Part shown: positions 27,372-63,390 of the stretch, piece after piece
Numbering within the stretch: the first letter of the stretch is position 1
Layout: every line of letters begins with the position of its first letter
Source: Ornithodoros turicata
Taxonomy: Eukaryota > Arthropoda > Arachnida > Ixodida > Argasidae
Reading direction: 5' to 3'
Assembly: GCF_037126465.1 (NCBI RefSeq)
Contig: NC_088210.1
Location: 10,748,011 to 10,812,010, forward strand
Length of the DNA stretch: 64,000 nucleotides
Position numbers and translations under genes: made by a program
The notes under the pieces: generated by a model
Told to the model about the DNA's origin: nothing
The model's input: only the letters and a program-made list of their open reading frames with translations
Databases searched by the model: none

Positions 27372-28920
27372 ATCCTCATCCTCACTACCTACAAATGGCA
27401 CTGGAGCAGCACCCAGCCTGCTGACCGACATCAGCCCCATCTCATCATCGTATCTTTATGTGTGCATGTGTGTGTGTGGGGGGGGGGTGTGTTCAATGAT
27501 CACTGAAGACGGTCCGTATGGCAGGGGTATCAGGAAAAAAGAGGATATCGTTCGCAACGATTGTTGATTGATTAGGAGCGTGCTATGTGGTTCTGTCACA
27601 CAAGGAATACGTAACATGTACTTCTCACGCAATGCATAGGTGAGTTCCCCGTTCGGACGATGGGACACTGCATGAATTATCTGCGTACAGTAACGCACAG
27701 TTACCCTTAATAAATAATGCACCCGTGTGACCTACAATGGACCGTTAATGGGCATCATTTTGCAAATGCCTCCTCATGAGGATCCGCATTATGTGCCCTA
27801 CACTCTAATTCTGTCGGTGTGCTCGTAAGCTGAAGCTGCATAACAAAACTGAAAGAAAGAAAGAAAGAAAGAAAGAAAAAAAAACACATTATGGATTTAA
27901 AATAATGACATTTGTTCTACGTACGAGAGTCTCATCATTTTCATGCATGGTGACATTCTCTAAGTTGCTGCCATGTTATGTATGCAAGGTTCAATACTCC
28001 ATGGTAGCAGAACAAGTTTGCTGTCTTGTTCGTCAGCAATGATATGTTCTATATGCTTTGAAATGCACGTTGCTCGTATAGGGGGCAGCTATATCGGTAG
28101 GTGGATAAGAAAAAGGTGCCTTGAAATTAGCAAATTAGCTACCTTAACGCCACCCTCCCCACGACACGGTTACACCTAACCGTAACAGCGGAAATCAAAT
28201 GAACGGTTAATGAACATGAAAAGCAACAGTTGACCAACAAATGAAACACAGGAAAAGTTTCCACTGCTTCGACTTGGGCTGAGCATCCCGCAACCGTCCA
28301 CAGTGTGACACGTGTAAGGATCAACAGAACCAGTTGTCAAAGCATCTGATTGGTCTTCATCAAGAAGACGTACCAGCAACGCAGGTTCCAGCTCCCCTCA
28401 CTTAGTAGCAGCAGCAGCCTGCGGTAACTGCATGTTACAAGCTTGTGTACGAATTTGTTGATACCTTCTCAATCCATTACTGTTGGTGCGTATTTCCAAG
28501 AACCATATCAAAGAATATAATAGTAAGTTAGATTCTGAACTCCGAGCAGGGCAGCTTCACGGCTTGACGGGCTGTGAAAGGAAAATAACAAACTGAAAAA
28601 GGTCAACAAATTGCAATCAGGTGAATGTTCCGTATTAAAGCAAGGATTAAAAGCCAAGAAAAAGTTTCGTCCACATAGTCTGTTCCAGTGTGTCCCACAT
28701 ATCGCGCCGCGGTGAGTCACGAAATAAGCGGGCTAGGAAGGTGGCGTACAACATTGGTTATCACGTGAGGTGTGGTGATGCAGGTGGCGGGAGTGGAAAG
28801 CACACGACGCCTGGCCAAAGGTTGCTGTGTTGGATTCGAGCGTGTCCAGTATAGACAAACGAGCTGAGGCGAGCTCCACCTATAGGGAGAAACACAGCAC
28901 ATAGAGCTTCGCATAGAACT
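27372..28920. other. mostly unrecognised; LINE 3' UTR then microsatellite
   Basis: The first 100 bases are likely the 3' UTR of the LINE just upstream, ending in TG and G runs near 27463-27488. (GAAA)n lies at 27848-27884. The rest shows no ends or domains. Confidence 0.45.
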
Positions 28921-30296: not shown

Positions 30297-30619
30297 ATGA
30301 GAGAAACTGATGTTCTGAGGCTGGAACAACATAGAAGGGACAGATACAAACAAACAGTTTCTCTCATGTTCAACAGGTGCCGCTTGCGTCGATTCCATCG
30401 TATGAATGTGTGTATGAGTGAGCAAAAAAATGTAAGAGTGAAAGGAGGGTGAGTGAGAGTGAGTGGCTGGTTTGTCGTCCCTTCAGATGACGCACCCCGA
30501 AAGTCACTGGAGAGGCGTGTTAGCTTAGCTCAATTGGTAGAGCCCTGGACCGGTAATCCAGAAGATGTGGGTTCGATCCTTACAGCTGGCTAACCTTTTC
30601 AGTGACTTTCATCTTTCAT
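30297..30619 (+). mobile_element. SINE-like retroposon with an internal tRNA-like domain
   Basis: The 13-bp direct repeat caggcaacgaggc flanks the element exactly (30284-30296 and 30620-30632). The insert begins 'atgagagaaactgatgttc' and contains the inverse of that block at about 30355-30372. It ends with 'ctttcatctttcat'. Unlike ordinary SINEs the tRNA-like part is near the 3' end (30519-30591), not at the 5' start. Related pieces are at 6960-7142 and 35650-36110. Confidence 0.82.
30519..30591 (+). other. tRNA-like sequence (73 nt) inside the retroposon
   Basis: The 73 bases fold as a full cloverleaf: 7-bp acceptor (gttagct/agctggc with two G-U), D arm gctc/gagc, anticodon arm ctgga/tccag, 5-base variable loop, T arm gtggg/cttac. 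The A box tagctcaattgg is perfect and the B box ggttcgatcct is close. The anticodon position reads GGT (Thr), but base 33 is C instead of the invariant T, so it is unlikely to be a working tRNA gene. A 17-bp inverted repeat encloses it (30499-30515 with 30594-30610, 15 matches). Confidence 0.7.
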
Positions 30620-30929
30620 CAGGCAACGAGGCGTCGAACGACGGGCTGGGGCCCGCGACACGTCGCGCTACATGGCAAGCGATCCTTCTGGAAGCATCTG
30701 CTCCTTCGCTCGCATCAATCTCAAGGATGGGCCGACGACCTTGCAGAGGCTTCTGTATTTCCTTCTCTCCACCGACGCGTGTTTTCTACAATGTTCACCG
30801 CTGTGTATAAAAGCTTGTGAGCTCCCAGTCGGAGCATTCTTTAACCTTAGTTCTGTCTAAGAGCCACCGCTCTTGTGCTAGCGAGCTAAGCAGCTAGAAC
30901 AAAGCGTTCGCCGATTATTCGCCGTCGCG

Positions 30930-31264: not shown

Positions 31265-31660
31265 CATTCGAAAAGCGATAAAACACCAGTGCAGGGGACA
31301 CGGATAGACGAAACACAGACGAAGCACAGACTGACAAAAACTTTTTTTGTTTATTGTCAGTCAGTGCTTCGTCAGTGTTTCGTCTCTCCGTGTCCCCTGC
31401 ACTCTTAAAAATGAACTTCACCACATTGCACGCTCCTAGCCAACCACCATCCCGAATGACAACGTTCTCGCCCCTGATTTGTTGAAAACGGGAGGAGGAG
31501 CCTATTTTGTGCTGTGCATAATGGCACAAAATAGGCTCCTCCTCCCGTTTTCAACAAATCTAGGGCGAGAACGTTGTCATTCGGTGTGATGGTTGGCTAG
31601 GAGCGTGCTATGTGGTGAAGTTCATTTTTAAGAGTGTGCACTGGTGGGGTTTTATCGCTC
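31265..31660. mobile_element. foldback element interrupted by a MITE-A insertion
   Basis: Left 'agcgataaaacaccagtgca' and 'ggggacacggatagacgaaa' are matched in inverse by 'gtttcgtctctccgtgtcc' and, beyond the inserted MITE, by 'tgcactggtggggttttat'. Removing 31400-31636 restores a continuous right arm. The loop contains a T-run near 31344. Confidence 0.7.
31400..31636. mobile_element. MITE family A copy
   Basis: It runs from CACTCTTAAAAATGAAC to gttcatttttaagagtg with nearly perfect palindromic arms ('gggaggaggagcctatttt' facing its inverse). TG lies on both sides. It belongs to the subtype with GAGGAGGAGCC in place of GGCGTACGCC at the centre, as do 49515-49751 and 55062-55300. Confidence 0.85.
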
Positions 31661-35649: not shown

Positions 35650-36110
35650 AAGAGATAAACTGATGTTCTGAGGCTGGAACGACATAGAAGGGACAGATAC
35701 AAACAAAGCCTCAAATTGCCTAAGAAATCAACGATGAAAGATGAAAGTCACTGAAACGGTTAGCCAGCTGTAGGGATCGAACCCACATCTTCTGGATTGC
35801 CGGTCCAGGGCTCTACCACTTGAGCTAAGCTAACACGCCTCTCCAGTGACTTTCGGGGTGCGTCATCTGAAGGGACGACAAACCAGCCACTCACTCTCAC
35901 TCACCCTCCTTTCACTCTTACATTTTTGCTCACTCATACACACATTCATACGACGGAAATCGACGCAAGCGGCACCTGTTGAACAAGAGATAAACTGATG
36001 TTCTGAGGCTGGAACGACATAGAAGGGACAGATCCAGAAGATGTGGGTTCGATCCCTACAGCTGGCTAACCTTTTCAGTGACTTTCATCTTTCATCGGTG
36101 AAGGAAGGAT
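35650..36110 (-). mobile_element. tRNA-like composite repeat, rearranged copy
   Basis: It contains the tRNA-like domain on the minus strand (35762-35834) with its enclosing inverted repeat ('gaaagtcactga' before, 'cagtgactttc' after). The block 'aaactgatgttctgaggc' occurs twice in direct orientation (about 35656 and 35992). A second, plus-oriented piece of the domain's 3' half lies at 36033-36080. The layout suggests tandem insertion or recombination between copies. Confidence 0.7.
35762..35834 (-). other. tRNA-like sequence, second copy
   Basis: A 73-nt cloverleaf equivalent to 30519-30591, read on the minus strand. The T stem is better paired here (gtggg/cctac). The anticodon position reads GGC (Ala) instead of GGT, again with C at position 33. 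A change of anticodon between copies fits a retroposon relic and not a conserved tRNA gene. Confidence 0.65.
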
Positions 36111-36481: not shown

Positions 36482-36976
36482 CAGAGTTGTGCCTAACTCG
36501 TTACTTGGTAACGGTTACTTTTTTTGGTAACGAAGTAACGATTCAGTTACTTTTTAAAACATAGTAACAGTAACGGAATCAGTTACAAAAATTGGTAACT
36601 CGTTACTGACGTTACTCGTTCCTTTTCTTCAGCGCGGGGGAGCACCTTTCGGCACTCCGTGTGGCGCAATGCGTGCAGACCAGGTGTGACGCAAGGTATT
36701 AGTGCAGTCCCTCGCTGGATATGTTGTTTACGTGCTGCGTGTATCAGCTTCTTGTGAAGTGCAATTTCTCATTAATAATGAGTTGAAAGTAAGTGACGGC
36801 ATGTTTGTTGGCTCCTTTAACTATGCGGCGGTAACGTAAAAGTAACTCGTTACCTGTGAGTAACGAGAACTCGTTACTTTTGTATGTTGGTAACGAGGAA
36901 CGTATTTAGTTACTTTTTTCTGAAGTAACGGGTAACGGTATTTAGTTCCTATTTTTTGGTAACGGGCACAAGTCTG
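36482..36976. mobile_element. non-autonomous hAT element with perfect 8-bp target duplication
   Basis: The ends CAGAGTTGTGCCTAAC and gggcacaagtctg are inverted. The repeat tttgaaca flanks it exactly (36474-36481 and 36977-36984). Both ends are packed with 'gtaac'/'gttac' motifs. It shares ends with 25136-25727 and resembles the CAGAGTTCGAGG ends of the two elements at 51.6-53.6 kb. It inserted into the right arm of the foldback at 36297-37110. Confidence 0.92.
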
Positions 36977-38825: not shown

Positions 38826-39132
38826 TAGCTATGGTTCAGTCGTGTCGGTACACATCTGCGTAATTATGCAGTGGAGATGTAAAACGGTACCGCAGAAATC
38901 CTCTTTTTGTTTTTCGTGTGCAAAATATTCTTGCGGTTGGGGGCAGAATAGCGTCGCAAAAAAAAGAAAAAATAAATGGAAAAAGAAAAAAAAAAGAGAA
39001 AGAAGAAGACGAAAAACATGATTTTCAGCGCCATCTATACATCTATCTTAACACTGAACTTACGTCGCGCATAGTATCCAGACTGCATGACAAAGCCATG
39101 TGGTGGTCCGATGAAATTTGCGTGTTCATATA

Positions 39133-39381
39133 CACTCTTAAAAATGAACTTCACCGCATAGCACGCTCCTAGCCAACCATTATCTCGAATGATATCGTTA
39201 TCTGCCCTGATTTGTTGAAAACGGGGGGCGTACGCCATTTCTGTGACACTTATGCTGTTCATAATTGTCACAGAAAAGGCGTACGCCCCCTGTTTTCAAC
39301 AAATCAGGGCAGATAACGATATCATTCGAGATAATGGTTGGCTAGGAGCGTGCTATACGGTGAAGTTCATTTCTAAGAGTG
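39133..39381. mobile_element. MITE family A copy (GTACGC subtype)
   Basis: A near-perfect palindrome from CACTCTTAAAAATGAAC to 'catttctaagagtg', with TA on both sides (39131-39132, 39382-39383). The centre has 'ggcgtacgcc' in both arms and a short loop 'cttatgctgttcataatt'. The high arm identity suggests recent origin or arm-to-arm conversion. Confidence 0.92.
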
Positions 39382-39399
39382 TAGTTCTATAGGTGAGGG

Positions 39400-47072: not shown

Positions 47073-49071
47073 CGGGAGCGGGGGATAGGTTTGCTGGTGA
47101 CGGGATCATGTGGTCGCCATAATTTCATGACAGTGCATTTGTGACGGTTCCTTCGTACTGTGCATTAAACGTGGTGATAGTAGAGCACCTGCGTGTGTCA
47201 CAATTTTTGTACCGTCCGTGTCCCTGTGGTCCCTATACATACTTACAAGATGCATTTATACCCACAAGCCCATTTCATTATCTTGGCAGTCCACGAGAAG
47301 GCTCAGTGTTGGTCCCGCTGCCATTTAAGATTCGCACGTGTTTCACCCGCAGGAGATCTTGCTTTTCAAGCGGCCGCGATCGTTAGATTCGAAATCACTC
47401 CGAAAGATGACACGAGTGTCATCTCTCGGATTTAATGACGCGTTTGCACGAACGACGGATTGTCTCTGGAATTAAGCTTCCGTTCTCTCGCAGTGAATAC
47501 AGTTCTCGCCTTGCATGAGAATTGCATAGCGTGTCTGCATAGCTTAATTAACTCCCCTACATAGTCCCGTAACATAAGACGTTTCTAATATGGCGCGGGC
47601 CTTTTCAGGACATTTTCACGTCCCGCTTTCTAATAATAAGGGCTCTCCCGGAAGCAGTCGATTACCACAGCTAGTTACCGTGGATAAGTTATCTTATCTG
47701 CTTTAAGGTATCTTGGCTAAGCAAATGTGAGCCAATCCTCCGTGTCCTTCGAAAACTCTACTGTGTCCACTGTATAACATTTGGCAGGCTTACGATACCT
47801 TGAGAAGTGTTTATCGTGTTCGTCTGCAGGGTTCGCACGACATCGCTGCCCCTGGCTGCGCTTCTAAAAGTACCACTACGGACTAAATCTCGTGTCTTCA
47901 GAATCCTACCAAAGTTATGTTACTGAAATCTTCTTGTCTCACTTTACGTTCCTGTAAAATATTTTGGCTCTATACGTGACGCGAAAGCTAGAGAAAGTTT
48001 AATTTTTATTGTTGAGAACCGTGACGTCATGTTATGCTCCAACGGGGCGCCCGGCTCTCATCTGGCAACGTTGTTGCCCCCCGCTTCTTTCAGGGGCACA
48101 CTTTTTGCACTCCGGTAGCGGAGCCCCACGTGACATACCGTCCGACCGCTCCGACCTTGGCGAAAACACAAAGGAGGGAGAAGACATCTCTCCCATTTTC
48201 CCCTCTTTCGATCAACCTCACACATGAGTTGTCCACCAGGTGACCCTCCCCGGACGCCGGCGTCGTTGCTAGGAGACGAGTGCCCTCTCCAGAATACGCC
48301 ATTGCAATTTGTGGGCTTATGGATTACGTCACTCGCTCGTCGCGTCATCGCGACTTGTGGAGGCTCAGCCGATCTTAGAAAATTGACAGAAATGCACAGC
48401 GTTTATAAGCACGATTGAAATTTCGCGTATAGAATCCTTCAGGCAACCTTCTTTTCATGAACTAAATAAGATAAACGCTGTTTTCTGAGTCCCGAGTGGT
48501 ACTTTAATGTATTCCTCCACCGCAAAGAGGGAACAAACATCACCCTTCCTTTTGCTTATCACGCGAAACTGTCGAGCATCTATACTTGTCCATCGCCGAC
48601 CTTGTGCTACTGAACTCCATCGAGACCCCTAACATAGAGTCGCTAAATACCCTGCCCTAACCGACTCATGAATACCCTAATAACATTCCTTTCATTTGGA
48701 AGCTCCCAAGAGTGTGCCCTTCACTAGCGTCGTTCGTCCCTCGTTGACCAGTTACTTTGTGATGCGCACACTTAGTCCATCCAACGTGCAATACCGCAGT
48801 GAATGCAATATTCACTGCCCTTTTCAGGCTCCCTCTGTCCCGAACTGAACGCACTAATGGGAACAGCTATTCGCCAAGGAACAAGGCGATTATTGTGTAC
48901 AGAGAGTATACAAAGAACGCAAAGAAGAAACTGAAGAAGATTGTGAAAGGAAAGGCGTCTAGAGTAGAAAAAAAGAAAGAAAAACAGTTTTCTCGCTTAT
49001 ACAGGTCCACGCTAACCATGTAGACGGACTTAAAAATTGACAAATCATTTTTGAATTAGTACATCAACCCA
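47073..49071. other. 2-kb stretch free of recognised repeats
   Basis: No MITE, SINE or LINE piece was recognised. Open frames of up to 96 codons carry no domain. A short palindrome ggcaacgttgttgcc is at 48064-48078. This is the largest 'clean' stretch of the window and the best place to look for non-coding exons or regulatory sequence. Confidence 0.4.
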
Positions 49072-49320
49072 CACTCTTAGAAATGAACTTCACCGCATAG
49101 CACGCTCCTAGCCAACCATCACCTCGAAAGATATGGTTATCTGCCCTGATTTGTTGAAAACGGGTGGCGTACGCCTTTTTGTGACACTTATGTTGTTCAT
49201 AATTGTCACAAAAAAAGGCGTACGCCTCCCGTTTTCAACAAATCAGGGCAGATAACGATATCATTCGAGATGGTGGTTGTCTAGGAGCGTGCTATGCGGT
49301 GAAGTTCATTTCTAAGAGTG
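49072..49320. mobile_element. MITE family A copy (GTACGC subtype)
   Basis: CACTCTTAGAAATGAAC to 'catttctaagagtg', with near-perfect arms including 'ggcgtacgcc' twice. CA on the left, TA on the right. Confidence 0.9.
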
Positions 49321-49514
49321 TAGGAGGTTGCTGGAGCCCTTGTAAGGTGGTGGCCCTTGGCGTAGAAAATACAGTCATCGCTTCAAACTCGGAAAAACTT
49401 GAAAACTTCGAAAACAAAAAAATTGCAGGACGGTTGCGAATGTGTATCGCAAATTTCAGCGGTAGCTGTTGTGCGTGGATGTTGACACTTTTATTGCTGT
49501 TATGTGCAGAATTG

Positions 49515-49751: not shown

Positions 49752-50073
49752 TACTTTAAAGTGACGAGTACTGCCTTCTGATATGTGATGTGAGTGATGA
49801 TGTGTAGAACTGGGATTAGCGGCAGAAAATATTACTAAAGGCCGGGCAGGAAACGCTGAAAAATCGGGACAATTTCCGGGACAACGTACCCATCTCTGAG
49901 TATGTCAAAACCGCTTTTTATTAGCTTCAGCTTATTTTAACTCGTTCTGCATGAGCCAAATCGACAGTCATCAGACAGAAGGAGAATAGAGAAGAAACGG
50001 AGGGTTTCGTGATACAGCCACAGCGATTTCCCGAGAGACCTCGCCGTAACACTAGGAAAGTTCAGTGACTCTA

Positions 50074-50324
50074 CACTCTTAAAAATGAACTTCACCGCAT
50101 AGCACCCTCCTAGCCAACCATCATCTCGAGTGATATCGTTATCTGCCCCGATTTGTTGAAAACGGGACACGTACGCCTTTTTTTGTGACAATTATGAACA
50201 AGCATAAGCGTAACAAAAAAGGCGTACGTCTCCCGTTTTCAACAAATCAGGGCAGGTAACCATATCTTTCGAGATGATGGTTGGCTAGGAGCGTGCTATG
50301 CGGTGAAGTTCATTTTTAAGAGTG
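50074..50324. mobile_element. MITE family A copy (GTACGC subtype)
   Basis: CACTCTTAAAAATGAAC to 'catttttaagagtg', TA on both sides (50072-50073, 50325-50326). It is the third A copy in 1.25 kb. Confidence 0.92.
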
Positions 50325-50614
50325 TAGTTAGTTAACACCCACCGCTGTAAAAGAACAAAACAAAAACAACGAAAAACAGAAAATGCTATCTTTCTCTCTA
50401 TATACAGAAATAAAGAAAAAAGCAACATTCCTGAAACGTTGCTAACACAAAAGCCGTTGCGCACAGGATCACGAATTTCGTTGCAGAGCACTTCGGATGG
50501 CGTTTAATGAGGAACCGCGTTTACTTAAGACGATAAAAAAGAGAAACGTGAAACGCAGCTTGCGGTTCCGCCCTTAGTTTCGCTCACCCAGAAGAAGGAG
50601 AGGCAGAGGAGCTT

Positions 50615-51395: not shown

Positions 51396-51565
51396 CAGCA
51401 CGGGCCAAGGGGCTCCACGGTTGCACATCATCGTAACTATACACGACATTCTCGTGTAAACATAAACAAGGCCGCATCACAACTTTCGGTGCCACGAAGA
51501 CTTCCGGTCCTTCCACGACTAAGGACGCTGAGAACCAGCCACCATGCAGAATGATAGCTTTCAGG

Positions 51566-52474
51566 CATAGATTGAGAAGTTACCCGTCAAAAGGAACTCG
51601 TTACAAGTTCAGTTACCATGTGCAAAATGTAACTAAGTTAATAACGAAGTTCTTCAGCCTGAAATGTAACTCGCAGTTACTGGGTTACTTAAAAAAAAAG
51701 AACGAGTTACTTCCAAGTTACTTCGGACACAAAATAGCATTACGCAAGTGCAGCGCGCGTGAGCAGTTGAGTTAGACCTTGAGTTGCCTGCGGAGGAGTG
51801 CAACACGCTTAGATCGTTTTCGTTTATGTCCAACAATAGACCTCTCCCTGTTTGTAAACAAATGACGTTATAGTGTTCGACAGCACCAGAAATTTGGTAG
51901 AATTGAACTACGCTCGAAGCTAGAGGTGAACAAGGTCGCGCCCGAAAGCCACGGTCTTGGGGGGATTACGATATGGTCCCTTAAAGGGACATGCTTTTCT
52001 TTCAATGTGAGGCAGCGAACAAATGCCCGTTCGTGGAACCCAGCCCTCTCCCTCCGATTTGTTTTGGTTTCAGTCTGTCTACCAATGTCATGATGACGTT
52101 TCTCTGGTAGAGGTCTATTCGAACGCTTTGCATCTTACTCCCTGTGGGCGATCAATGGTTCAGCTTCATTTCAAAGGCAAGCGGTTCTTACTTCCTGAAT
52201 AAAATGCTGTTATTGATTGAACATCACGTTTTATAGCAAAAAATGCCATGAAGGAACCTGAGAGGAAGCCAGAAAATATGTGAACGTGAGTGGAAAGCGA
52301 GTTAAAAGTAACTTGGAACTTAACGTAAGTTACTTTGGCAAAGTTCCCTGAAAAAGGAACGAGTTCCTCTTAAAGTTACCACGGCGCAAAAGTACCGAGT
52401 TAAGTTACAAGTTACCAAAAAAACGAACTTAGTTACAGTAACGAGTTACTTGTAACGAGTTACCTCGAACTCTG
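51566..52474 (-). mobile_element. hAT element, left-arm copy
   Basis: On the minus strand it runs from CAGAGTTCGAGGTAAC (52474) to 'cttctcaatctatg' (51566). Flanking octamers ctttcagg (51558-51565) and ctttcacg (52475-52482) match at seven of eight. Subterminal 'gttac'/'gtaac' motifs are dense. It matches 52635-53591 along its length, with a few indels and substitutions. There is no coding content. Confidence 0.8.
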
Positions 52475-52634
52475 CTTTCACGTTCCTGATTTGTTGAAAA
52501 CGGGTGGCGTACGCCTCTTTGTGGCAATTTGAATTGCCATGAGAAGGCGTTCTTTTGTATTTTTTGTTCCTTTTTATAAAAAAAAACTCAGTTAAGGCGT
52601 ATACTGTCCAATCTCTCCTCAAATCAGAAGCGAT

Positions 52635-53591
52635 CAGAGTTCGAGGTAACTCGTTACAAGTAACACGTTACTGTAACTAAGTTCCTTTTTTTTGGTAACT
52701 TGTAACTTAACACGGTATACTTTTGCGCCGTGGTAACTATCAGGGGAACTCGGTTCTTTTTTTAAGTAACTTCGCCAAAGTAACTTAAGTAAAGTTCCAA
52801 GTTACTTTTAACTCGGTTTTCACTCACGTCCACATATTTTCTTGCTTTCTCTCCGGTTCCTTCATGGCATTTTTTGCCACAAAACGTGATATTCAATCAA
52901 TGACAGTATTTTATTCAGGAAGTAAGAACCGCTGCCATTGAAACGAAGCTGAACCATTGTGCGCCTAGAGGGTGTAAGTGTGAGTAAGTGAGGGAGTAAG
53001 AGTGCAAAGTGTTCGAATAGGCCTCTACCAGAGAAACGTCATCATGACTAATTACATACATTGGTAGACAGACTGAAACCGAAACAAATCAGAAAGAGAG
53101 GAATGAGTTCCACGAACGGGCACTTGTTCGCTGCCTCCCATTGAAAGAAAAGTAGGACCGAGGGTCGCGTCCCTTTAAGGGACCATATCGTAATCCCCTC
53201 ACGACCGTGGCTTTCGGGCGCGACCTTGTTCACCTCTAGCTTCGAGTGTAGGTCAATTCTACCAAATTTTGGCGCTGTCGAACACTATGACGTCATTTGT
53301 TTACAAACAGGGAGAGGTCTATTGTTGGACATAAAGGAAAACGATCTAAGCGTGTCGCGCTCCTCCGCAGGCAACTCAAGGTCTAACTCAACTGCTCACG
53401 CTCGCTGCACCTGCGTAATGCTATTTTGTTTCCGAAGTAACTTGGAAGTAACTCGTTCTTTTTTTTAAGTAACTCGGTAACTGCGAGTTATATTTCAGGC
53501 TGAAGAACTTCGTTATTAACTTAGTTACATTTTGCACACGGTAACTTAACTTGTAACGCGTTCTTTTTGACGGGTAACTTCTCAATCTATG
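52635..53591 (+). mobile_element. hAT element, right-arm copy
   Basis: It runs from CAGAGTTCGAGGTAAC to 'cttctcaatctatg'. The 8-bp duplication gaagcgat is perfect (52627-52634 and 53592-53599). Its two ends match each other only partly (CAGAGTTCGAGG against CATAGATTGAGA). It is in inverted orientation to 51566-52474. Confidence 0.85.
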
Positions 53592-53718
53592 GAAGCGATA
53601 ACAGTACCAGTCGCCGTGGCGGTTGCCGCAGACAGTGTTTGCTGCGAAACCGGATGTCGTTTTGGCAACAAACCGGAAGCGGTGCAGAAGGGCATGTATA
53701 CCCTCAAGTGGTCGCTTG

Positions 53719-55015: not shown

Positions 55016-55540
55016 GACCGGCGGCGTGACCGAACGGGTTAAGGCGTCCCGCTCGTTGGTACACTCTTAAAAATGAACTTCACCACATAGCACGCTCCTA
55101 GCCAACCACCATCCCGAATGACAACGTCCGCGCCCCTGATTTGTTGAAAACGGGAGGAGGAGCCTATTTTGTGGTATGGTATGCACGGCACAAAATAGGC
55201 TTCTCCTCCCGTTTTCAACAAATCAGGGGCGAGGACGTTGTCATTCGGGATGGTGGTTGGCTAGGAGCGTGCTATGTGGTGAAGTTCATTTTTAAGAGTG
55301 TAGTAGCCAAGGTCGTGCTGGGTTCGAATCCTACCACCGGCTGTGCTGTCTCAGGTTTTCCCTGGGTTTTCCCAAGACTTTTCCAGACGAAGGTCGGCAC
55401 AGTTCCCCTTGAAGTCGACCCAGGACGCATACTAACACCTCTGTCCCCCACTCTTTCCTGCTGTCCTCTCTCCATCTGTCCACATCTGTACGCCGCTCAC
55501 AGCCACAGTTGCTTCGCGGCGCTAACACAGAATAAAAAAA
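55016..55540 (+). mobile_element. SINE family 1, split by a MITE
   Basis: The tRNA-like head starts at about 55016 (A box 'gtgaccgaacgggttaagg'), is interrupted at 55062-55300 by a MITE-A copy, and resumes at 55303 with 'gccaaggtcgtgctggg' and the B box ggttcgaatcc. The rest of the body and A-rich tail (to 55540) are complete. Removing the MITE and one TA gives an uninterrupted, leucine- or serine-tRNA-like head with a long variable arm. Confidence 0.85.
55062..55300. mobile_element. MITE family A inserted in a SINE
   Basis: CACTCTTAAAAATGAAC to 'catttttaagagtg' with TA on both sides (55060-55061, 55301-55302). GAGCC subtype. The insertion site within the SINE proves a TA target duplication for this family. 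Confidence 0.93.
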
Positions 55541-57189: not shown

Positions 57190-58070
57190 CAGAGGTGGGG
57201 AGTAATGCATTACAAAGTAATGCATTACCGGTAATGCATTACTTTTGAGTAGTGGTAATGAACTACATTTTGCCAGCAAGTAATGAGTAATGGTAATGCA
57301 TTACATTTCGACTGAGTAATACAGGGTGGCATTACTCATTGCTTTTGTCGAATGTTCATTGCGCCACTTGAAGATTGGAACATCCAGGTTTTCTTCAACC
57401 CGCCTTTAACAATGAGCACAGGGCAACGAGGAAAGAGAAAGGCGCAGCCTGGGGAATTCTGCAAGGGTTCAACAGTCGGCGGTGTGTGTCACAAGTGTTT
57501 ACATGATGATATATATCACCGATTTTCTCCTGTGTGCATTTGGAGTAAAGGATAATCAGTGAAATAGAAACATAGCCTCTATGAAGGTAACACGTAACAA
57601 TTGCTGTAGTGATTCACTGTTTTGGTATGGTACCGTGTTAGTTTCTCTTGTGCTGTCAAAGGTAGCTTTTCTGCCAGGACAGAACTATAGGCTGGGCTCC
57701 ATCCGCAGGCTCCATAATGCTAGAAAAGGCATCTGCAATAATTCTTATCTATAGTTTTTGCCTATCAGACTCGCTTCTGCGGGGATTTAGTGGCACCAAT
57801 TTGGGGATACGCAGATGGCTATTGCATATGACAAAAAAAGCAAGGAAAAAAACTTATGCATAGCATCTTTGAGGCTTATGCCCTAAGACGTAAATGTAAT
57901 GCCAGAGTGATGCCCTTACTTCGTTAAAGTAATGACATTAATAATGCATTACTAATATCAAAAAGTAATGAGTAATGTAATGCACAAGTAATGAGTAATG
58001 TAATGCACAAGTAATAAGTAATGGTAATGCGGTAATGCATTACAAAGTGAAAGTAATTTCCCCACCTCTG
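57190..58070. mobile_element. non-autonomous hAT element with perfect 8-bp target duplication
   Basis: The ends CAGAGGTGGGGAGTAATG and 'tttccccacctctg' are inverted. The duplication gtggtcat is perfect (57182-57189 and 58071-58078). 'gtaatgcattac' is repeated in both subterminal regions (57195-57310, 57940-58040). 881 bp; the inner part shows no domain. Confidence 0.93.
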
Positions 58071-63196: not shown

Positions 63197-63390
63197 CACT
63201 AAAAAAAAAACAGGACTTCATCGCATAGCACGCTCTGCACGCACTATTGACACTGGAGATAGTGTTATCGCTTCTGATTCGGAAAGGGGGCGTACGGACA
63301 TCTCTCTTCGAATCACAAGCAGTAACCCTATCATTCTGCGCAATGGTTGGCGCACAGCGCGCTGTGTGGTGATGTTCTTTTTTTAGAGTT
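63197..63390. mobile_element. MITE family B, shortened copy
   Basis: 'cactaaaaaaaaaacaggac' to 'gttctttttttagag', with 'ccgcatagcacgctctgca'-type left arm and 'ttggcgcacagcgcgctg' right arm. The middle is shortened: after 'gggggcgtacgg' the second core is lost. Confidence 0.75.

Follow-up and report, generated by a model that had tools for sequence, protein, structure and literature searches.

Two hAT-type elements facing each other within a worn MITE of Ornithodoros turicata

The window analysed in this study is a stretch of 64,000 nucleotides (64 kb) of Ornithodoros turicata DNA (NCBI RefSeq assembly GCF_037126465.1, contig NC_088210.1, positions 10,748,011 to 10,812,010 of the forward strand), and all positions given below are those of the window. 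At 51490-53650, two long elements face each other across a spacer of 160 bp, and pieces of a MITE lie outside and between them (Table 1). The original prediction, which was made from the letters alone, had placed two inverted hAT copies here, and both copies and their ends were found exactly where it had put them. The 43-bp A/T-rich loop stretch between the AAGGCGT repeats is perhaps a third small insertion.

Table 1. Features of the locus, in positions of the 64-kb window
Feature	Position	Strand	Remarks
Left MITE arm, outer part	51521-51565	+	profile positions 27-71; the final 8 bases are the left copy of TSD1, CTTTCAGG
hAT-type copy 1, non-coding, 909 bp	51566-52474	+	ends CATAGATTGAG... and ...CTCGAACTCTG
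Right copy of TSD1, CTTTCACG	52475-52482	+	7/8 identical to 51558-51565; arm positions 64-71 implied by the adjoining pieces
Inner left MITE arm and start of the loop	52483-52543	+	subfamily A as far as GGCGTACGCC; 35/40 to the A consensus
Loop stretch, A/T-rich, 43 bp, flanked by direct AAGGCGT repeats (52544-52550 and 52594-52600)	52544-52600	.	read from the sequence
Inner right MITE arm, subfamily B	52601-52626	-	profile and consensus match over 52605-52626
Left copy of TSD2, GAAGCGAT	52627-52634	-	identical to the B consensus, 8/8
hAT-type copy 2, non-coding, 957 bp	52635-53591	-	inverted relative to copy 1
Right MITE arm, outer part, with the right copy of TSD2 (53592-53599)	53592-53637	-	profile positions 30-75

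A global alignment of the two inverted hAT-type copies gave 844 identical bases among 906 aligned (93.2%), with 37 transitions, 25 transversions and ten gaps that span 54 columns (K2P 0.072), while BLAST, which counts gaps, gave an identity of 87.9%. The longest identical run is 48 bases (P 0.92) and the heterogeneity among 60-base blocks has a P of 0.38; there is no significant patchiness and, therefore, no sign of recent conversion between the copies. The marks of hAT elements that were tested, an 8-bp duplication and short terminal inverted repeats beginning with CA, are both present, the latter as CATAGATTGAG and CAGAGTTCGAG, which agree at 8 of their first 12 bases. The motif GTTAC/GTAAC occurs 19 times in each copy, mostly near the ends, while 2.4 occurrences per 909 bp are expected at the rate of the window. 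All 15 stop-to-stop frames of at least 55 amino acids overlapping the pair were scanned against Pfam at an E value of 0.1, and none of the 15 contained a family at its cut-off, nor a transposase. The lone match, to UPF0253 (E 0.079), is far below the cut-off, lies in a frame mostly outside the hAT-type copy and is most likely a chance hit. The 8-bp target-site duplications (TSDs), the CA...TG ends, the subterminal repeats and the lack of coding sequence are features of non-autonomous hAT elements. Within the 64 kb, BLAST found only these two long copies of the family, plus one 42-base match at 36923-36963, and exact patterns taken from the MITE core or from the ends of the hAT-type copies had 0 matches in viral and prokaryotic contig collections. 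Inside copy 1, at 51835-52119, and in the counterpart in copy 2, the ends AATAGACCTCT...AGAGGTCTATT bound a segment of ~285 bp, which is perhaps an older element carried along.

Each copy has its own 8-bp flank repeat at the element ends, in agreement with the prediction: TSD1, CTTTCAGG/CTTTCACG, matches at 7 of 8 bases around copy 1, and TSD2, GAAGCGAT on both sides of copy 2, is perfect (8/8). Random pairs of 8-mers from the window reach an agreement of at least 7/8 at a frequency of 0.0005 and of 8/8 at a frequency of 0.00006.

The receiving MITE was identified with an arm profile of 112 columns built from 17 arms in the window. With nhmmer, the outer left flank (51521-51562) matched profile positions 27-68 (E 0.012), the left part of the centre 66-111 (E 3.2e-07), the right part of the centre 66-105 (E 0.031) and the outer right flank (53637-53591) 30-76 (E 0.046), of which E values three are weak, and ungapped scoring against the profile was clearer. 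In the latter, 51521-51557 ranked 14-22 among 127,928 windows and 53600-53637 ranked 19-23 among 127,926, and the windows that outrank these outer pieces are about as numerous as real arms. For each outer piece, a single register stands out, and it is the one predicted by the 8-bp duplication. The arm profile of the local palindromic MITE family is thus recognizable in all four pieces in the predicted register, which bears out the claim that flanks and centre belong to one MITE family. TSD1 occupies arm positions 64-71 and TSD2 68-75, so that the mirror sites are 4 bp apart, just as had been estimated.

The subfamily of the arms differs between the two sides of the centre. The inner left arm is of subfamily A by its profile scores (A 50.8, C 30.4, B 25.7), with 35 of 40 bases matching the A consensus over 52483-52522. 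The inner right arm (52605-52626) scores best with B (B 13.0, C -0.7, A -2.9), its match to the B consensus being only 14/22, as against 11-12 for A and C, and TSD2 itself gives B 11.6, C 2.0 and A -1.9. The outer right piece leans to B (B 15.3, A 10.8, C 8.5), and the scores of the outer left piece (C 21.9, A 18.6, B 17.0) do not tell the subfamilies apart. The wear of the left arm is uneven, with 35/40 matches in the inner part, 23-26/37 in the outer part and 6-7/26 in the terminal part. In both arms, the outermost 26-29 bp (51495-51520 and 53638-53666) can no longer be recognized (6-9 matches), and the CACTCT termini of the local family were accordingly not found on either side of the receiving MITE.

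The prediction of a single palindromic MITE stood as regards the single family, but the receiving MITE itself scarcely qualifies as a palindrome, and it is the hAT-type copies that make the 2-kb one. Identical bases occupy 35 of 68 positions of the two arms (18/34 and 17/34; 51%), and the agreement of their outer parts, which random pairs reach with a P of 0.0009, indicates that the arms are related. In six A- and C-type MITE copies, the arms agree at 67, 62, 61, 63, 67 and 61 of 68 positions; the values for two B-type copies are 47/65 and 39/60 (the latter at 63206-63389), and hence B-type copies are also well worn. When the flanks were joined without the hAT-type copies, the empty site folded with a z of -1.9, whereas four intact MITEs (including a B-type copy) gave z values of -15.9, -32.8, -27.0 and -35.1, and an arbitrary stretch gave +1.5 (60 shuffles each). 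The weak fold comes partly from the 43-bp loop stretch and the lost termini. Because it lacks the near-complete palindrome of the local MITE family, the receiving MITE is classed as no more than a worn or hybrid relative. Assuming neutral decay, most of the arm mismatch should be older than the hAT insertions, since the arms differ at 33 of 68 positions and the hAT-type copies at 7%.

In the rest of the window, the arm profile gave 44 hits in all at E up to 10, of which those with E below 1e-3 were regarded as clear. An insertion would split a hit, and split hits therefore matter: 23 clear hits (28 when all hits up to E 10 are counted) extend through positions 55-85 without a break, and four clear hits end early, namely those at 27529 (position 79), 32641 (position 73), 47001 (position 70) and 57097 (position 58). 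Read by eye, none of these four breaks shows a hAT end, and a tandem array lies beyond one of them, the other three being followed by sequence that could be assigned to no element. About 90 bp past the arm broken at position 58, a different hAT-like end with GTAATGCATTAC repeats is seen by eye at 57190-57330. The window also contains five palindromic MITEs (39131-39383, 31400-31636, 49071-49323, 50071-50325 and 55060-55302) of about 240-255 bp, which are 89-94% self-complementary and fall into two subfamilies; several of them appear, by eye, to be flanked by TA. Two inverted copies of ~266 bp at 30355-30620 and 35733-35997, which are 96% identical and each carry a tRNA-like stretch (Rfam tRNA), probably represent a tRNA-derived SINE.

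What is observed at the locus is a pair of insertions that are in register with the MITE profile and have different duplications and different flanks. We consider it probable, at roughly 0.85, that two separate hAT-type insertions, one per arm and in opposite orientation, entered a worn A/B MITE, and that their near-mirror position is due to chance, perhaps with a mild regional preference. The target would have been a worn MITE, itself non-autonomous, whose inner left arm belonged to subfamily A and whose right arm belonged to subfamily B. Into each of its arms, a member of one non-coding hAT-type family would have been inserted, the two in opposite orientation. Each insertion would have been a cut-and-paste transposition with an 8-bp staggered cut of the target, leaving its own duplication, and the hAT transposase was presumably supplied from elsewhere. 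The near-mirror position might then be a coincidence, perhaps helped by the mild regional preference, and together the two copies now make up an imperfect inverted repeat of 2 kb for which no function is apparent. The separateness of the two insertions, for which the original prediction had argued from the different duplications, is supported because the two 8-bp duplications are different and in register and because the inner flanks belong to different subfamilies, A and B. Several findings speak against this account: BLAST finds just two long members of the family in 64 kb, and these are 160 bp apart, closer than random insertion usually gives; TSD1 fits the MITE arm consensuses poorly (3-6/8); the left arm has decayed more in its outer than in its inner part, which one copy of one age does not explain; and the four other arms break near the same positions (58, 70, 73 and 79), without a hAT there.

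Inverted copying, a composite transposon and assembly fold-back were all tested and were ruled out by the duplications, the flanks and the alignment. The inverted arrangement and the 93.2% identity of the hAT-type copies would fit a transfer of one insertion to the opposite arm through inverted duplication or interarm conversion, and the original prediction had named inverted copying as an alternative. Copying would, however, give both hATs one duplication and one flank, and neither is the case, because TSD1 and the reversed TSD2 share only 2 of 8 letters, and the inner flanks are A-type and B-type in arms that are only 51% alike; inverted copying is therefore rejected as highly improbable. 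The least credible possibility of all is a composite transposon, in which the whole structure would have moved by means of its outer hAT ends, mirror copies of the same end: the 8 bases outside these ends agree at 1 of 8 where one outer duplication is predicted, and the outer flanks are two halves of one MITE. An inverted repeat of 2 kb is also the typical form of an assembly or read fold-back artefact, but 62 mismatches among 906 bases and ten gaps distinguish the two repeat arms, the spacer between them is not symmetric and each copy has a duplication of its own, which leaves such an artefact very little probability.

Another explanation is that the sequence or structure of this MITE family offers the hAT family a preferred site, at about arm positions 64-75, and that both arms were struck for this reason. 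Such a preference would agree with the mirror position within 4 bp and the mirror orientation, with the presence here of both long family copies found in the window, and with the breaks in four other arms at positions 58-79. If each arm receives one insertion, though, a mirror offset of 4 bp or less arises by chance with a probability of 0.079, and the value is 0.034 if both insertions may fall anywhere in the 264-bp MITE. By reasoning, the opposite orientation would halve these values, and at 0.079 no hot spot need be invoked. The two 8-mers are alike at only 2 of 8 letters in mirror orientation, and the four other breaks show no hAT end by eye. The 23 other clear hits that are unbroken through 55-85 also speak against a preferred site, with little power as the hAT copies are few. 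Accordingly, of the targeting suggested in the original prediction, the part concerning the structure of the palindrome, for which the fold of the empty site served as a test of cruciform targeting, is not supported, as the empty target is hardly a palindrome (z -1.9) and has mismatches between its arms at 33 of 68 positions; the part concerning sequence keeps the distance of 4 bp between the sites in its favor and loses by the dissimilar 8-mers. A preferred site thus seems unlikely, though a weak regional preference of the hAT may exist. It is slightly less likely still that palindromic MITEs, by virtue of a fixed arm stretch (about 64-75) preferred by hAT, act as two-sided landing pads that repeatedly yield long hAT inverted repeats genome-wide.

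The origin by two insertions is settled by the duplications and the flank subfamilies, and the locus is a commonplace example of mobile elements nested in another, in which the matching positions are a mildly curious coincidence. It represents one case in which a long imperfect palindrome came from two ordinary insertions without inverted duplication. Larger palindromes are prone to breakage and form double-stranded RNA when transcribed. Should the same mirror placement be seen again in other copies, MITEs would be the seeds of larger palindromes; the single locus shows no such thing.

A literature search found no account of such a locus, but its components can be compared with known systems. 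The two copies have in common with non-autonomous hAT elements the 8-bp duplications, the CA...TG ends, the subterminal GTTAC/GTAAC motifs and the absence of detectable coding remains. One report gives hAT elements as 11.6% of the Ixodes scapularis genome (PMC10561763). The nested plant LTR retrotransposons described in PMC6911290 are likewise elements within elements, but belong to another element class and concern a 20-bp scale. That study describes a weak preference for short palindromes over all insertions together and no palindrome effect in the nested subset (p 0.50), with targeting primarily by other mechanisms, and it cites a palindrome preference of Drosophila DNA transposons. The palindromic MITEs of the window itself, with long inverted repeats (e.g., 39133-39381 and 55062-55300), share the arm profile with the receiving MITE, whereas the latter has inner arms of two subfamilies that barely pair.
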